A stretch of 38,733 nucleotides of DNA, taken from assembly GCA_002897935.1 (NCBI GenBank), contig BDTA01000071.1, forward strand, positions 1-38,733, in the 5' to 3' direction. The notes beneath the pieces were generated by a model that searched no databases, was not told where the DNA came from, and was given only the letters and a program-made list of their open reading frames with translations. Shown here in pieces: positions 21,137 to 27,368 of this stretch. The DNA is from a bacterium BMS3Abin08. Its GTDB lineage: Bacteria; Nitrospirota; Thermodesulfovibrionia; Thermodesulfovibrionales; JdFR-85. Position numbers and translations under genes: made by a program. Every line of letters begins with the position of its first letter. Position 1 is the first letter of the stretch.

Positions 21137-22267
21137 ATGGGAAAAGACAATGTAATCTTTCTTGAGGTTCTTGAATGGTTTGACCTGACAGGGAAGGAGA
21201 TCGTCTTCAGGATCCCTCAAAAGGGTTCCGGAGAGATCAAGTTCGGGGCACAGCTTGTAGTCCGGGAAAGCCAGGCTGCCGTGCTCTTTTACCAGGGCAA
21301 GGCATTCGATGCATTCGAGCCCGGCAGACACACACTGACTACCGCAAACATACCCATTTTAACCAAAATACTTAGCATACCGTGGGGCATGACCAGTCCT
21401 TTGAGGGCGGAGGTATACTTTGTAAACATGAAGATATTCCCGAACCTCAAGTGGGGGACACGGGATCCCGTTGCCTTCAGGGACTCTGAACTTGGTCTTG
21501 TCCGCCTTCGTGCCTTCGGGGTATTCGATATAAGGGTTGTACAGCCCGTGCTGTTCATCAACCGCCTTGTCGGAACCCAGGGCATTTACACAACAAATGA
21601 TATAGAGGAATACCTCAACCGTGTTATCGTATCCCGGTTCAATGACCACCTCGGTGAAAAACTCGACACAATCCTGAACCTCCCCGGGACCTATGATGAA
21701 CTCTCTGACGGGCTCCTGAAGCGCCTTGAAGAGGACTTCAGTCATTTCGGGCTTGGCCTTGCGAAGCTCTACATCAATTCCGTAACACCGCCTCCGGAGG
21801 TCCAGAAGGCAATAGACGACAAGAGCAAACTCCACGTCTTCGATGATCTGGACCGCCTCTTCAAGATGAAGGCGGCCATGGCGATGGAGAAGGCGGCCGA
21901 AACACAGGGAGAGGCGGGTGCCGGCATGGGGATGGGCTTTGGTTTAATGATACCGGCCATGTTTGCCGAGATGATGAAGAATCAGAAATCTCCTGAACAG
22001 ACATCCTCTGAACCCGTGGAGACAAAATGTCCGGAGTGTCATCACCCTGTCTCAAAGGATGCAAGATTCTGCCCCCATTGCGGACACCAGATCCTCGTCT
22101 TACAGCAATGTCACAAGTGCGGGAAGAACCTGCCCGCCCATGCAAAATTCTGTTTGCGCTGCGGAGCAGCTGTTGAGGATATCCCTTCTGAAAAGAAATG
22201 CCCCCATTGTGGAGAGTTAAATCTTCCGGAGTCTGTTTACTGCAATCACTGTGGACAGAAACTCTGA
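21137..22267 (+). CDS. SPFH-domain protein with three C-terminal zinc ribbons
   Basis: The first 245 or so residues match the SPFH/virion-core-like family (YdjI type): an N-terminal IPQKGSGEIKFGAQLVVRESQAAVLFYQGK, a central PGTYDELSDGLLKRLEEDF helix, and YINSVTPPPEVQKAIDDKS. Then come a Gly/Met-rich stretch (GMGMGFGLMIP), a linker, and three double-CxxC zinc ribbons (from about residue 298 to the C-terminus): CPEC..CPHC, CHKC..CLRC, CPHC..CNHC. No transmembrane helix is obvious. In other bacteria such proteins sit with phage-shock or membrane-stress genes. Here the partner is the overlapping zinc-ribbon gene downstream. The family is clear; the role is inferred. Confidence 0.85.
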   Translation: MGKDNVIFLEVLEWFDLTGKEIVFRIPQKGSGEIKFGAQLVVRESQAAVLFYQGKAFDAFEPGRHTLTTANIPILTKILSIPWGMTSPLRAEVYFVNMKIFPNLKWGTRDPVAFRDSELGLVRLRAFGVFDIRVVQPVLFINRLVGTQGIYTTNDIEEYLNRVIVSRFNDHLGEKLDTILNLPGTYDELSDGLLKRLEEDFSHFGLGLAKLYINSVTPPPEVQKAIDDKSKLHVFDDLDRLFKMKAAMAMEKAAETQGEAGAGMGMGFGLMIPAMFAEMMKNQKSPEQTSSEPVETKCPECHHPVSKDARFCPHCGHQILVLQQCHKCGKNLPAHAKFCLRCGAAVEDIPSEKKCPHCGELNLPESVYCNHCGQKL

Positions 22268-23528
22268 AACATGGAGCATAGAACAACAGTGCCCTCAATG
22301 CGGGGGACCTGTCATCCTTGCAGATACAGACCGGATCCTCTCCTGTTCATACTGCCGCGTAAGGCTCTTTATCTCAACACGGGATTACTTCAAATACATC
22401 CTCCCCCCGGCAGATCAATCCCCGGAAGAACTCATCTTCACACCTTACTGGAGGTTCAAGGGCATAATCTTCTCAAGCAGTGTTGTAAAAACCGAACACA
22501 GGATAACTGATTCCACTATCTCCGCCTCTGAGCATTCCCTCTTTCCCATCTCCCTTGGAGTAAGGCCACAGGCGGTCAGGCTGAAGTTCCTCTCACCGGA
22601 GTTGAAACACCATTTTTTTCTTCCGGAGCGCCCCTTCAGGGAGGTGCTCCCGGACATGGAAAAGAGGCGCAATCACGCTGAAAGCCTGAGCTTAAAGCAG
22701 CAGGGATCTATTCTTAACACCGGTCAGGAAGCACCGCTGCATCGGGCCTTCATTGGAGAAACAACGAACCTGATCTATCTCCCTCTCTCAATTGACGGTG
22801 ACAGGTTCTATGACACCGTATCAAAAAGCCTCCTCTGTAAGATACCCGGGGATATGTCCCTCCGGTTTGTAAAGATGAAGGACTGGGGCGTGAAGTTCAT
22901 CCCCACCCTCTGCCCGGACTGCGGATGGGATATGACGGGGGAAACGGACAGCCTCGTTCTCCTCTGCAGAAACTGTGATTCAGCCTGGAAGGCCTCGTAT
23001 CATGGACTGGAGAAGGTTCGATACTCCGTCATACATACAAAGGATGCCGGTGCGCTCTATCTTCCCTTCTGGAGACTAAGCGCTGAAATAAAAGAGATAG
23101 GGCTTAACTCCTATGCAGATCTCGTAAGGTTTGCAAACCTCCCCAGGGTAATCCGGGATGAATGGGAAGAAAAAGACATCACCTTCTGGACGCCCGCCTT
23201 CAAGGTACAGCCGGGGCTCTTTCTCTCTGCCTCAATGAAGGCAACGGTCAGCCAGCTTGCCCCCGAGATGAGCGCCCCCCTTCCAGGGGGATTTGTGTTT
23301 TCCGTGAATCTCCCATTTGGTGAGGCGTTTGAAAGCCTGAAGACCATCCTCATCGAAATGGCTATCCCGAGGAAGAAATTCATAAGCATTATTGACGGTA
23401 TCTCCGTAACCCCCGTGGACAGAGAACTCGTACTTGTTCCCTTCATGGATACGGGACATGAACTGAACCAGCCGCAGATGCACCTGAGCATCAGCCGGAA
23501 CACGCTGAAATACGGAAGAAACCTGTAA
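22251..23528 (+). CDS. Two-zinc-ribbon protein paired with SPFH protein, unknown function
   Basis: I do not recognise a named family. The 425-residue protein opens with a zinc ribbon (CPQCGGPVILADTDRILSCSYC, cysteines at about 14, 17, 32, 35), followed by an alternating beta/alpha region with YILPPADQSPEELIFTPYWRFKG. A second zinc ribbon lies near residues 222-242 (CPDCGWDM...CRNC), followed by LYLPFWRLSAEIKEIG. The motif aromatic-P-aromatic/FW-R occurs after each ribbon (FTPYWRFKG; LYLPFWRLS), so the protein appears to be an internal duplication. GTG start at 22,251 lies inside the SPFH gene, a 17-bp overlap pointing to coupled translation. It has no signal peptide and no clear membrane helix. 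Confidence 0.75.
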   Translation: MDRNSETWSIEQQCPQCGGPVILADTDRILSCSYCRVRLFISTRDYFKYILPPADQSPEELIFTPYWRFKGIIFSSSVVKTEHRITDSTISASEHSLFPISLGVRPQAVRLKFLSPELKHHFFLPERPFREVLPDMEKRRNHAESLSLKQQGSILNTGQEAPLHRAFIGETTNLIYLPLSIDGDRFYDTVSKSLLCKIPGDMSLRFVKMKDWGVKFIPTLCPDCGWDMTGETDSLVLLCRNCDSAWKASYHGLEKVRYSVIHTKDAGALYLPFWRLSAEIKEIGLNSYADLVRFANLPRVIRDEWEEKDITFWTPAFKVQPGLFLSASMKATVSQLAPEMSAPLPGGFVFSVNLPFGEAFESLKTILIEMAIPRKKFISIIDGISVTPVDRELVLVPFMDTGHELNQPQMHLSISRNTLKYGRNL

Positions 23529-23698: not shown

Positions 23699-23956
23699 AT
23701 GCAGGATGTGATTTCCGCCTTGCTTGATCAGATTATTCTTGAGGGGAAAAAGCAGGGCCTTGAACAGAAAGACATTGCCCGGAAGGCAGGGATATCACAG
23801 GAAACACTGTCCCGTGCAAAAAAGGCATCCGACATACAGCTTTCCACCCTTATCCGGCTGGCCAACGCCGTGGGGCTGAAAGTAGCCCTATCTCCAGCGG
23901 CCCCTGTTTTAGAGAAAATTCTCTCAGGAGATGTTCTCCGTGAAGACCGACCGTGA
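23699..23956 (+). CDS. HipB-like XRE-family antitoxin/repressor
   Basis: The 85-residue protein has a helix-turn-helix of the Cro/C1 type: GLEQKDIARKAGISQETLSRAKKASDIQLSTLIRLANAVGL, with the recognition helix around SQETLSRAKKA. Such proteins neutralise the HipA kinase and repress their own operon. GAGGAG lies 8 nt before the ATG. Upstream is an exceptionally good promoter with three or four copies of a dyad, as expected for autoregulation. The gene overlaps the kinase gene by 17-26 bp depending on the start chosen there. Confidence 0.88.
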   Translation: MQDVISALLDQIILEGKKQGLEQKDIARKAGISQETLSRAKKASDIQLSTLIRLANAVGLKVALSPAAPVLEKILSGDVLREDRP

Positions 23957-25298
23957 AGCGGTTGTCTGGACACGCATAGGGATGCGGCCGGTGAAGATGG
24001 GGCGCATCTATGTGACTGATTCCGGGTGTCGTTTTACATATAGCGAAGACTTCCTGAAGACCGGCCTGCCCGGTGTCGGGCTTCTGTATCCTCCGGAAAT
24101 CATTCAGCAGACGACTATAGTTCGTCCCCGAACTGAATTCTTTGATTTACCGCCCCCTATTCAATCGCTGATACCGCCAAAGGGCGAGAAGAATTTTCAA
24201 CGACAACTCATTCTTGCATACCTGGCCAAAAAAGGCATTGTCCCCTCGCGGGGCTTTGATGCGGATTGGGAGATCCTGATGATGGCGGGGCACGGTGGTA
24301 TAGGGCATCTGGATGTATTTAAAGACGATGAGAAGGCCATTGAGTGGTACTCTGTTCCAGCAAGGCACAGCCTTTTTGAGATTTCGGATAAGTTCGGCTT
24401 CTCCCTGAAGGAGTTCCTGTCCTGGTTTGACGGCGATGTCGAAGAATTTATTCAGATCATAGGGGCCACACCCACTGTGGGCGGCGCTATCCCGAAACTT
24501 CTGATGACGATCCCTGAGACCGGGTGGACCGGAGAGGTAGGGCTTCCAAGTAAAATCGGAGCCCACGGTGTTACGGATGTGATTTTGAAATTTGAGCAGA
24601 CAAGGAGCTACCCGGGCATTATCGAGCTGGAAGCCCAGGCCCTGGATATACACGAAGAAGCGGGTTTCGAGGTGCCGCGCAGGTGGAAAACCGTGATTAA
24701 TGATATCCCCACAATCGTGATCGAACGATTTGACCGTGACAGGAATTGCAATCCCGTGTTTACCGAGACATTATATTCCATATTCGCTTCAGGCGATCAG
24801 ACCATCACGACCCCTTACAGCACCACCTATGATGCAATCGGCCGTGCCATCGACCGTTCCCCCATTGATCTGGTTACGGACAAGAAGTCCGCCAAACAGC
24901 ATCTCCTGAAGCGGCTCCTGCTCGCCCTGACAACAGGCAACGGTGACATGCACCTTGAGAATCTCTCGATTATAAACAAGGAAAACACCCTTGCATTTTC
25001 GCCTGTCTACGACCCGACGCCCATGCGGGCTTACAGCATACACAACCTGTTGACCCCGATGCCGTTCGGACAATATGGAGAGGTCTTCCTTCCCGAAGCC
25101 CTTTTGCGGTTTACAAGAAACCTCGGTTTCAGGAAGAACTATCTGCTGGACCTGATAGATGAGGTCCTTACCGTTACAAAGGACTATGCGGATCGTATCC
25201 GGGCATTAAAAAATCTGCCGGATAAAAACAGGGAAAACCTGATCTCCATTGTAGAGTCGGTCAAGTCGGAACTCAGGGCCTGTTCAAAAATAACCTGA
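23931..25298 (+). CDS. HipA-like serine/threonine kinase toxin
   Basis: The protein has up to 455 residues with an N-terminal HipA domain (GRIYVTDSGCRFTYSEDFL) and a kinase C-lobe. The catalytic loop is GNGDMHLENLSI (about residues 336-347) and the metal-binding motif is SPVYDP. HipA proteins phosphorylate targets such as aminoacyl-tRNA synthetases and cause growth arrest. The loop aligned with the autophosphorylation site reads PTVGGAIPK, with Thr rather than the Ser of classical HipA. ATG 23,931 directly abuts AGGAG; GTG at 23,940 has better spacing and may be the true start. No truncation is seen, so the toxin is probably active. Confidence 0.87.
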   Translation: MFSVKTDREAVVWTRIGMRPVKMGRIYVTDSGCRFTYSEDFLKTGLPGVGLLYPPEIIQQTTIVRPRTEFFDLPPPIQSLIPPKGEKNFQRQLILAYLAKKGIVPSRGFDADWEILMMAGHGGIGHLDVFKDDEKAIEWYSVPARHSLFEISDKFGFSLKEFLSWFDGDVEEFIQIIGATPTVGGAIPKLLMTIPETGWTGEVGLPSKIGAHGVTDVILKFEQTRSYPGIIELEAQALDIHEEAGFEVPRRWKTVINDIPTIVIERFDRDRNCNPVFTETLYSIFASGDQTITTPYSTTYDAIGRAIDRSPIDLVTDKKSAKQHLLKRLLLALTTGNGDMHLENLSIINKENTLAFSPVYDPTPMRAYSIHNLLTPMPFGQYGEVFLPEALLRFTRNLGFRKNYLLDLIDEVLTVTKDYADRIRALKNLPDKNRENLISIVESVKSELRACSKIT

Positions 25299-26704: not shown

Positions 26705-26736
26705 AATAAAACGACAGGGTAGAGGAGGTGACAGCC

Positions 26737-26964
26737 ATGAGCAATCCAACAATCGAGCTAAGCAAGAAACAGGTAATAAATGTACTGGCTCAGTTTCCTC
26801 CCGAGGAATTGAAAGAAATCATTGACACGTTGCTTAAGCAAAAAGCCTTTGTACCACCATCACTTGAAGAAATCACGGAAGAGGCAAGTAGGATTGTACA
26901 ACGTGAAAGACTTGAGCCGGAAATTGTCGATGAAGCCATAAAATGGGCAAGGTCAAAAAAGTAG
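26737..26964 (+). CDS. Antitoxin of a PIN-type toxin-antitoxin pair
   Basis: The 75-residue protein from ATG 26,737 (MSNPTIELSKKQVINVL) follows GGAGG by 8 nt; a GTG nine bases earlier is inside the ribosome-binding site and is rejected. It is almost all helical and acidic, with LAQFPPEELKEIIDTLL and an end EAIKWARSKK. It has no classical ribbon-helix-helix or HTH motif that I can see, but the position just before and overlapping (22 bp) a PIN toxin gene is that of an antitoxin. It is probably autoregulated through the extended -10 promoter. Confidence 0.78.
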   Translation: MSNPTIELSKKQVINVLAQFPPEELKEIIDTLLKQKAFVPPSLEEITEEASRIVQRERLEPEIVDEAIKWARSKK

Positions 26965-27368
26965 TTATTGACACCAATGTCTTCATTTCAGGATTCGGTT
27001 GGGGCGGAAAACCGGATGCCTTATTAACACTTCTAAAAAACAATCAAATAGTCTGTTACTTCAGTCCTGAAATATTTGAAGAGTTGAAGCGAGTAGTATC
27101 TTATCCAAAGCTGAAGTTTACTGAGTCTTTACAAAACAAAATCCTTGAATTTGTATTCTTTAATTGCAAGCTTGTTGAACCGAAGGAACATATCACAGTT
27201 ATAGTGGACGACCCTGATGATAACAGGTTTTTAGAGTGTGCAGTAGAGGCAAATGCTGAATTTGTAATATCCGGCGATCCACATCTTCTCAGGATTGGAA
27301 AATACAAAACTGTCGAGATAGTAGATGTTGATAAATTCTTAGATATTTTTTCTATAGAAGGAGATTGA
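26943..27368 (+). CDS. PIN-domain toxin (COG1569-like)
   Basis: The 141-residue PIN-domain ribonuclease has the N-terminal acidic motif VIDTNVFISGF (Asp10), a second acid in FEELKRV, and the C-terminal cluster DDPDDNRFLECA plus VISGDPHLL, so the metal site appears complete. In this family such toxins cut RNA and are held in check by the gene upstream. The 22-bp overlap with the antitoxin gene implies coupled translation with the antitoxin made first. The product is full length and probably functional. The AT-rich gene has codon use unlike the housekeeping block, consistent with transfer. Confidence 0.88.
   Translation: MGKVKKVVIDTNVFISGFGWGGKPDALLTLLKNNQIVCYFSPEIFEELKRVVSYPKLKFTESLQNKILEFVFFNCKLVEPKEHITVIVDDPDDNRFLECAVEANAEFVISGDPHLLRIGKYKTVEIVDVDKFLDIFSIEGD

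Follow-up and report, generated by a model that had tools for sequence, protein, structure and literature searches.

In this study, two overlapping genes, here named p1 and p2, were analysed within a window of 38,733 nucleotides (the whole stretch of DNA under study) on contig BDTA01000071.1 of the Nitrospirota bacterium BMS3Abin08 (assembly GCA_002897935.1). They form a conserved two-gene unit, in which p1 encodes an SPFH protein ending in three zinc ribbons, and p2 encodes a zinc-ribbon partner that appears to have arisen by tandem duplication of one module, composed of a ribbon and two long strands. The unit is a variant of the SPFH plus ribbon-partner kind of system, and it is distinguished by a duplicated, apparently soluble partner and by close relatives of its organism in which no PspA was found.

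Gene p1 (positions 21137..22267; all features of the pair lie on the forward strand) starts with ATG and encodes a protein of 376 amino acids. An hmmscan search placed the SPFH (Band_7_1) domain PF13421 at residues 23-233 (21203..21835) with 218.3 bits, against a curated cut-off of 24 (E 1.2e-64), and matched Zn_Ribbon_1 to three stretches of the protein. The SPFH domain is followed by a Gly/Met-rich, mildly hydrophobic linker (residues 262-285; 21920..21991) with conserved G267, G269, M271 and P273, and then by the ribbons, whose CxxC pairs are at residues 298/312 (CPEC/CPHC; 22028..22081), 325/339 (CHKC/CLRC; 22109..22162) and 355/369 (CPHC/CNHC; 22199..22252). All 12 cysteines are invariant across the 19 aligned p1 proteins (19/19). 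The linker is a possible membrane-contact segment. A search of PDB sequences with the p1 profile gave matches in the ribbon region alone (two, E 0.003-0.004).

Gene p2 (22251..23528) overlaps p1 by 17 base pairs (bp; 22251..22267). Its GTG start lies within codons of the last p1 ribbon and is the sole in-frame ATG, GTG or TTG ahead of the first p2 ribbon. Since the genes overlap, co-translation of p1 and p2 is a fair prediction. The 425-residue product has two ribbons, with CxxC pairs at residues 14/32 (C14, C17, C32 and C35; 22290..22355) and 221/239 (C221, C224, C239 and C242; 22911..22976), and its eight cysteines are all invariant in 16/16 p2 proteins. Thus the overlap, the SPFH and zinc-ribbon identity of the first protein, and the total of five ribbons (three four-cysteine ribbons in p1 and two in p2) are as a sequence-only reading of this DNA had described them.

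Each p2 ribbon is followed by an aromatic-x-P-(Y/F)-W-R motif, i.e. FTPYWRF (residues 63-69; 22437..22457) and YLPFWRL (270-276; 23058..23078), which according to the alignment and the structure model open long strands at residues 62-76 and 269-281. The second long strands of the two modules span residues 164-182 (LIYLPLS; 22740..22796) and 385-400 (LVLVPF; 23403..23450). In an alignment of 74 p2 rows (65 of the 69 named p2 frames, passing a length filter, and nine others), P65, Y66, R68 and P272 are invariant and W67, F273 and W274 are conserved in at least 90% of rows. Each of the four long strands thus has its conserved proline (P65, P178 and P272 invariant, P397 in at least 90%).

The proposal that p2 consists of two copies of a ribbon with its aromatic motif came from the same sequence-only reading, and the comparison of the two halves bears it out. 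As single sequences the halves are only weakly alike (Smith-Waterman score of 45, equalled by 21 of 2000 shuffles). As profiles they match with E 2.3e-7 over 60 columns (16 sequences) and with E 8.7e-7 over 169 columns (83 sequences). Halves stripped of their ribbons still scored 31.5, against a maximum of 27.0 and a mean of 13.5 in 200 column shuffles and 15.3 for a reversed profile. As a ribbon control, the p1 ribbons were compared with the N half (36.0, 34 columns) and the C half (26.5, 24 columns) of p2, and both scores were below that of half against half (49.8); therefore the ribbons account for part, and not all, of the similarity. A similarity of ribbons only was ruled out by the ribbon-free score together with this control.

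Structure prediction, another check suggested by that reading, gave a first AlphaFold model with a predicted local distance difference test (pLDDT) of 77.5 and a deeper one, based on 74 sequences, with a pLDDT of 91.5 and a predicted template modelling score of 0.90. In the model both halves have the same order of elements: ribbon, long strand, helices, long strand. Because the halves share this order and a conserved proline in each long strand, p2 is read as what looks like a tandem duplication of the module. Foldseek searches with both models yielded no match at E <= 0.001, and further fold comparison of the model gave Z of 3.7 or less, which is not evidence of a new fold. PDB sequence searches with p2 returned only chance antibody chains and ribbon-sized sub-threshold matches.

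No Pfam or NCBIfam model reached its cut-off on the p2 of the window. For 16 p2 relatives the best family E-values, among the 25 of 58 families listed, were 4.5e-5 or worse, and the nameable families among these 25 were mostly small ribbon or finger models. A protein that had no family assignment can thereby be defined as a family, for which there are now a conserved partner, a confident model of the structure and representatives in complete genomes.

The pairing with p1 was followed in three sets of genomes. The search of relatives covered 61 genomes (that of the window and 60 relatives) and found p2 in 19 of them, with 16/17 genomes of the window's family included. In all 19 p1 adjoins p2, and strong Band_7_1 matches (E 1e-66 to 3e-63) coincide exactly with these 19 genomes; the two other genomes with strong Band_7_1 matches (G039 and G057) have a different partner. 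In a phylum-wide sample, 23 of 295 genomes matched p2; four of these (G065, G074, G083 and G208) matched by the ribbon only and were set aside, 11 of the other 19 had already been counted, and in 8/8 newly found genomes p1 lies beside p2, which gives 27/27 genomes for both searches. The third set, the best 80 of 202 confirmed stretches (named loci), overlaps with these, as 11 of the 80 are already among the 27 genomes. It comprises Nitrospirota, Desulfobacterota-type and other 'Deltaproteobacteria' metagenome-assembled genomes, as well as the complete genomes of Desulfosarcina alkanivorans and D. widdelii.

At 74 of the 80 named loci p1 is located upstream of p2 on the same strand; this count includes L114, where the match is confined to p1 residues 273-376 at the end of a contig. 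Both frames were called at 69 loci, and at 63 of these p1 is the frame directly ahead of p2. The genes overlap by 4-28 bp at 31 of the 74 paired loci; the gaps that could be placed reach 629 bp, five start positions were not placeable, and three values (-128, -92 and -68) look like artefacts of start choice. Among the six unpaired loci, a full-length p1 is present elsewhere in the genome in four, a fragment of p1 at the end of a contig in one, and only a ribbon-like match in one. No other family recurs at more than 10 of the 80 loci, as counted from called frames, though some flanks are short: more than 1 kilobase of sequence is available upstream of p1 at 57/69 and downstream of p2 at 67/78 loci. 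Within the window's family the flanking genes differ between loci and the p1/p2 pair is constant. The two genes therefore make up the core of the unit by themselves: they stay together, p1 mostly directly precedes p2, no other family exceeds 10/80 and the neighbours vary. This survey of gene neighbours, which the sequence-only reading had called for, thus found the pairing with SPFH genes conserved. Separately, a second, broken p2 stretch with stops was seen in one genome (G013:C86:10720-11564; L023-L025) on a contig other than that of p1, and it may be a pseudogene, a duplicate or an assembly error.

PspA (PF04012) gave no match in the window's genome and its 60 relatives, 19 of these 61 genomes holding the pair, with 9/14 control genomes positive. 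It is present in 9 of 24 other pair-holding genomes, chosen from the 80 named loci, and PspC was not found in any of the 17 genomes of the window's family. The idea that the pair is a PspA system was rejected on the basis of these 61 genomes and of the 9/24 elsewhere. PspA independence has precedent in operons where a band-7 protein is described as standing in the place that PspA takes elsewhere (PMC11237479); newly added here are near relatives with no PspA found at all.

Among described systems, the pspA-ydjGHI operon of Bacillus subtilis offers the closest terms of comparison. Its SPFH protein YdjI is reported to depend on YdjG/H for its location at the membrane and to recruit PspA, and it is like p1 in having a Band_7-type SPFH domain, a low-complexity linker and a C-terminal zinc finger, with no transmembrane helix (PMC8581546). 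YdjI, likened here by its description, differs from p1 in that p1 has three ribbons and no pspA in its operon. The YdjG-like partner is described as having two zinc ribbons, a YpeB-like domain and a transmembrane segment (PMC11237479).

SPFH genes followed by a gene for a ribbon protein of 350-430 amino acids were found on plasmids of Vibrio coralliilyticus, Paracoccus ferrooxidans, Tsukamurella, Comamonas and Enterococcus gallinarum, and reading frames indicate the same order in Pseudorhodobacter. On the E. gallinarum plasmid NZ_CP116511.1 (L202) the genes for an SPFH protein, a ribbon protein and a TPM-domain protein stand in a row, which corresponds to the parts given for YdjI, YdjG and YdjH (PMC11237479). 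No pspA is present among the six genes of that stretch. The pair on the V. coralliilyticus plasmid NZ_CP048695.1 (L196; 63-6124) lies near a TIR-domain gene and two genes for unknown proteins, surroundings that resemble a defence context.

The partners of this plasmid class (alignment A4) have two ribbons, then a strand with Y-L-P-Y-W, and a C-terminal hydrophobic helix. The hydropathy cut-off (1.6, in the simple hydropathy scan used for all transmembrane calls in this work) was exceeded in 5/6 of them, the sixth sequence ending before the C-terminus. They may be called YdjG-like by the Enterococcus gene order and by their ribbons, YdjG itself being taken from its description. Compared with hhalign, the N half of p2 matched the A4 profile with E 2.1e-10 over 60 columns, i.e. 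the ribbon and P-Y-W, and the whole protein matched with E 5e-7. After removal of the ribbons the C part of p2 scored 35.4-35.5 and the N part 28.6-29.4, against maxima of 22.5-23.4 (100 shuffles each). Long forms of p2 in G019, G052, G080, G159 and G279 appear intermediate by eye, and a plasmid search with the long form gave no match. From these profile comparisons we conclude that the p2 module is a distant homologue of the YdjG-like partner module. Both kinds of partner are encoded beside an SPFH gene and have a ribbon followed by a long strand with aromatic-x-P-(Y/F)-W. In contrast to the A4 class, which has two ribbons, then one module and a C-terminal transmembrane helix, p2 alternates ribbon and strand module twice and has no such helix. 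It is kept apart from YdjG because the helix is absent and because YdjG is known by description only.

A second kind of partner was found in G039, G057 and G208, which belong to the same order as the window's organism, and likewise in G065 and Gemmatirosa. Here the SPFH gene stands beside a gene for a zinc ribbon-DUF4178 protein (PF13785: E 1.2e-32 in G057, 1.6e-33 in G039 and 7e-23 to 2.4e-21 in the others). Like p2, these partners are SPFH-adjacent and ribbon-bearing, and in G039 and G057 ribbon and domain are doubled; the SPFH protein of G057 ends in GYF_2, whereas p1 ends in ribbons. Identification of p2 itself as a DUF4178 protein was rejected, as PF13785 was not among the matches of the window's p2 up to E 5, against 1.6e-33 to 2.4e-21 in five such partners. 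At the loci of G039 (L074) and G057 (L075) a spermidine-synthase-like gene (by eye) adjoins the SPFH/DUF4178 genes and no PspA was found in the genome, so that these loci are a form of the polyamine/DUF4178 neighbourhood (PMC11237479) without PspA; L096 in G208 is the third locus of this type in the order.

In a tree of 65 SPFH domains, 50 p2-associated domains lie on one side of a single branch (support 89/99; 88% of bootstrap trees), and two long-p2 rows adjoin them (84/90). The partner labels require 5 changes on the tree, against a mean of 14.7 when shuffled; the YdjG-like rows do not group together (4 changes), and the tree has several very long branches, those of L195, L202 and L200 being unsure. 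The tree took in 28 of the named loci, with YdjI outside it, and its DUF4178 labels were assigned by eye, Pfam confirming 5/6 (that of L093 is by eye alone). To judge from this tree, partner type follows SPFH descent.

More distant likenesses were also considered. Flotillin has a long C-terminal coiled coil; p1 has ribbons at that place. No N-terminal hydrophobic segment above the cut-off, corresponding to a flotillin-type membrane anchor, is present in p1. The archaeal Meth_adaptin is a single protein with an SPFH domain, a coiled coil and a zinc ribbon, and it is linked in discussion to membrane work of the type performed by the endosomal sorting complex required for transport (ESCRT); unlike p1, it is archaeal and located in adaptin/ESCRT loci, and it is likened here by its description (PMC10936438). 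In the parts of the open-licence literature covered by our search, no description was found of an SPFH protein with a soluble ribbon partner of two modules.

Taken together with the kinship to YdjI and YdjG, these data lead us to a model to which we assign an even chance of being right, namely that p1 and p2 are a two-protein module working like the YdjI/YdjG part of pspA-ydjGHI, without PspA and without a membrane-spanning partner. The SPFH domain of p1 would build an oligomeric scaffold on the inner membrane or close to it, with the zinc ribbons displayed and with membrane contact possibly through the Gly/Met-rich linker. The doubled module of p2 would bind p1 as a dedicated soluble adaptor and would recruit client proteins or present them. 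That p1 oligomerises, that it binds p2, that the module is located at the membrane and that p2 is an adaptor are all inferred from what is known of the family. The role in membrane stress or as a scaffold of large assemblies, which the sequence-only reading had held plausible from the SPFH family, gains from the kinship with YdjI/YdjG, but only in part, as the known stress role runs via PspA; since none was found and the assembly is 96% complete, a PspA-linked role seems unavailable to the window's organism. A more specific version, possible and rather doubtful, is a stand-alone, PspA-independent SPFH machine in which the soluble, duplicated p2 replaces the membrane-anchored YdjG/H receptor as a ring lid or adaptor. 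If true, Nitrospirota and Desulfobacterota would survey their membranes with a system independent of the ESCRT-III-like PspA. SPFH/zinc-ribbon proteins are widespread, and the bench work found in the available parts of the literature concerns the PspA-coupled version only; with a minimal two-gene version in genomes where PspA was not found, the role of the SPFH/ribbon core itself becomes addressable.

Several observations weigh against this model or the results that underlie it. The link of p2 to YdjG runs via the plasmid relatives of Vibrio, Paracoccus, Pseudorhodobacter, Comamonas, Tsukamurella and Enterococcus, and it is weak beyond the ribbon and the strand with P-(Y/F)-W: the ribbon-free matches of p2 to A4 span 16-46 columns, that of the N part pairs the second strand of p2 with the first of A4, and the long form of p2 matches the YpeB/NTF2-like C-terminal region of A4 only weakly (E 0.027). 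Some lineages may have a unit of more than two genes, as a gene with GAF and HD_5 domains, maybe co-transcribed, directly precedes p1 in the same orientation at 10/80 loci (e.g. L146:635-2329 and L117:1822-3699). Its Pfam identity, based on two scanned members, suggests a cyclic-di-GMP-type signalling protein, and we take it to be of the HD-GYP type. The pair may also be dispensable: in G015, a genome of the window's family that is 80% complete, p1 is reduced to a remnant (residues 6-16 and 25-71; L203, G015:C65:6900-8696) and no p2 was found, and either the pair has decayed or the assembly is faulty there. The correlation between p1 and p2 distances (r 0.83, 62 pairs) is largely expected from shared descent. 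Stress-type promoters are not clearly enriched upstream of p1 at 91 loci (some genomes being included twice): sigma-54 motifs were found 2 times (shuffle mean 0.44, maximum 2), sigma-32 motifs 0 times (0.2 in shuffles) and CIRCE (controlling inverted repeat of chaperone expression) 0 times, with sigma-70-like motifs at 8 (shuffle mean 2.0, maximum 6). Finally, membrane location is unproved, since p2 has no predicted transmembrane helix and p1 no clear one.

The last point also speaks for the most serious competing explanation, a cytosolic scaffold for assembly or quality control, in which p1 and p2 would form a soluble, chaperone-like complex serving large enzyme complexes and never located at the membrane. 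No transmembrane helix is predicted in the p1 or the p2 of the window, and hydropathy is below the cut-off in 18/19 p1 relatives (exceeded in one) and in 71/74 p2 proteins. The pair occurs widely among Nitrospirota and Desulfobacterota-type genomes, and most members of these groups are anaerobes. The invariant positions of the 74 p2 rows, which besides P, Y, R, G, W, F and Cys include one Asp (D188) and neither His nor Glu, are unlike an active site for that reason, and Band-7 proteins have been discussed as chaperone-like (PMC11237479). However, YdjI is membrane-associated despite having no helix, and membranes are described as the general site of SPFH protein action (PMC8581546); we regard the cytosolic scaffold as unlikely, and the membrane-proximal YdjI/YdjG-like module is preferred.

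Less likely still, the pair belongs to a larger YdjI/G/H-like complex, the remaining members of which have their genes at other sites in the genome. Here the row of SPFH, ribbon partner and TPM genes on the E. gallinarum plasmid is suggestive. In the window's genome there is no TPM-domain (YdjH) gene beside the pair; its only TPM match lies on another contig (G000:C108:17761-18120; L204), and the protein is a candidate YdjH-like receptor acting in trans. TPM proteins (PF04536) are encoded in 15/17 genomes of the window's family, but they also occur in 8/14 control genomes. Moreover, the 80 named loci and 19 family stretches contain no close relative of this TPM protein, in a search that excludes close relatives only and misses the divergent Enterococcus TPM, and the lack of PspA and PspC matches in the window's family likewise speaks against such a complex.

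It is quite improbable that p2 is a nucleic-acid-binding regulator with a TFIIB-like ribbon and p1 merely its tether. Its ribbons have weak, sub-threshold matches to TFIIB and S27a-type ribbons and the ribbon of YdjG has been called a DNA-binding type (PMC9239133), but p2 matches no model above any cut-off, proteins too are bound by zinc ribbons (PMC3581485), and many of the conserved p2 residues are located in the long-strand motifs. A phage-defence or conflict system, to which the TIR-domain gene near the Vibrio relative and two PADLOC profiles (E 0.0025 and 0.0044) might point, is the least credible explanation, as these profiles match only the first ribbon of p2 and none matches p1, and as the pair is regular in 16/17 genomes of its family.

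Downstream of p2, the window contains a small helix-turn-helix gene (HTH_3) overlapping a HipA_C gene (E 1.9e-23) at positions 23699-25298, which by their domains are classified as a hipBA-type toxin-antitoxin pair. Further on, at 26728-27368, a gene for a protein of 78 amino acids without Pfam match overlaps a PIN_3 gene (E 4.9e-22), and these two genes probably constitute another toxin-antitoxin pair.

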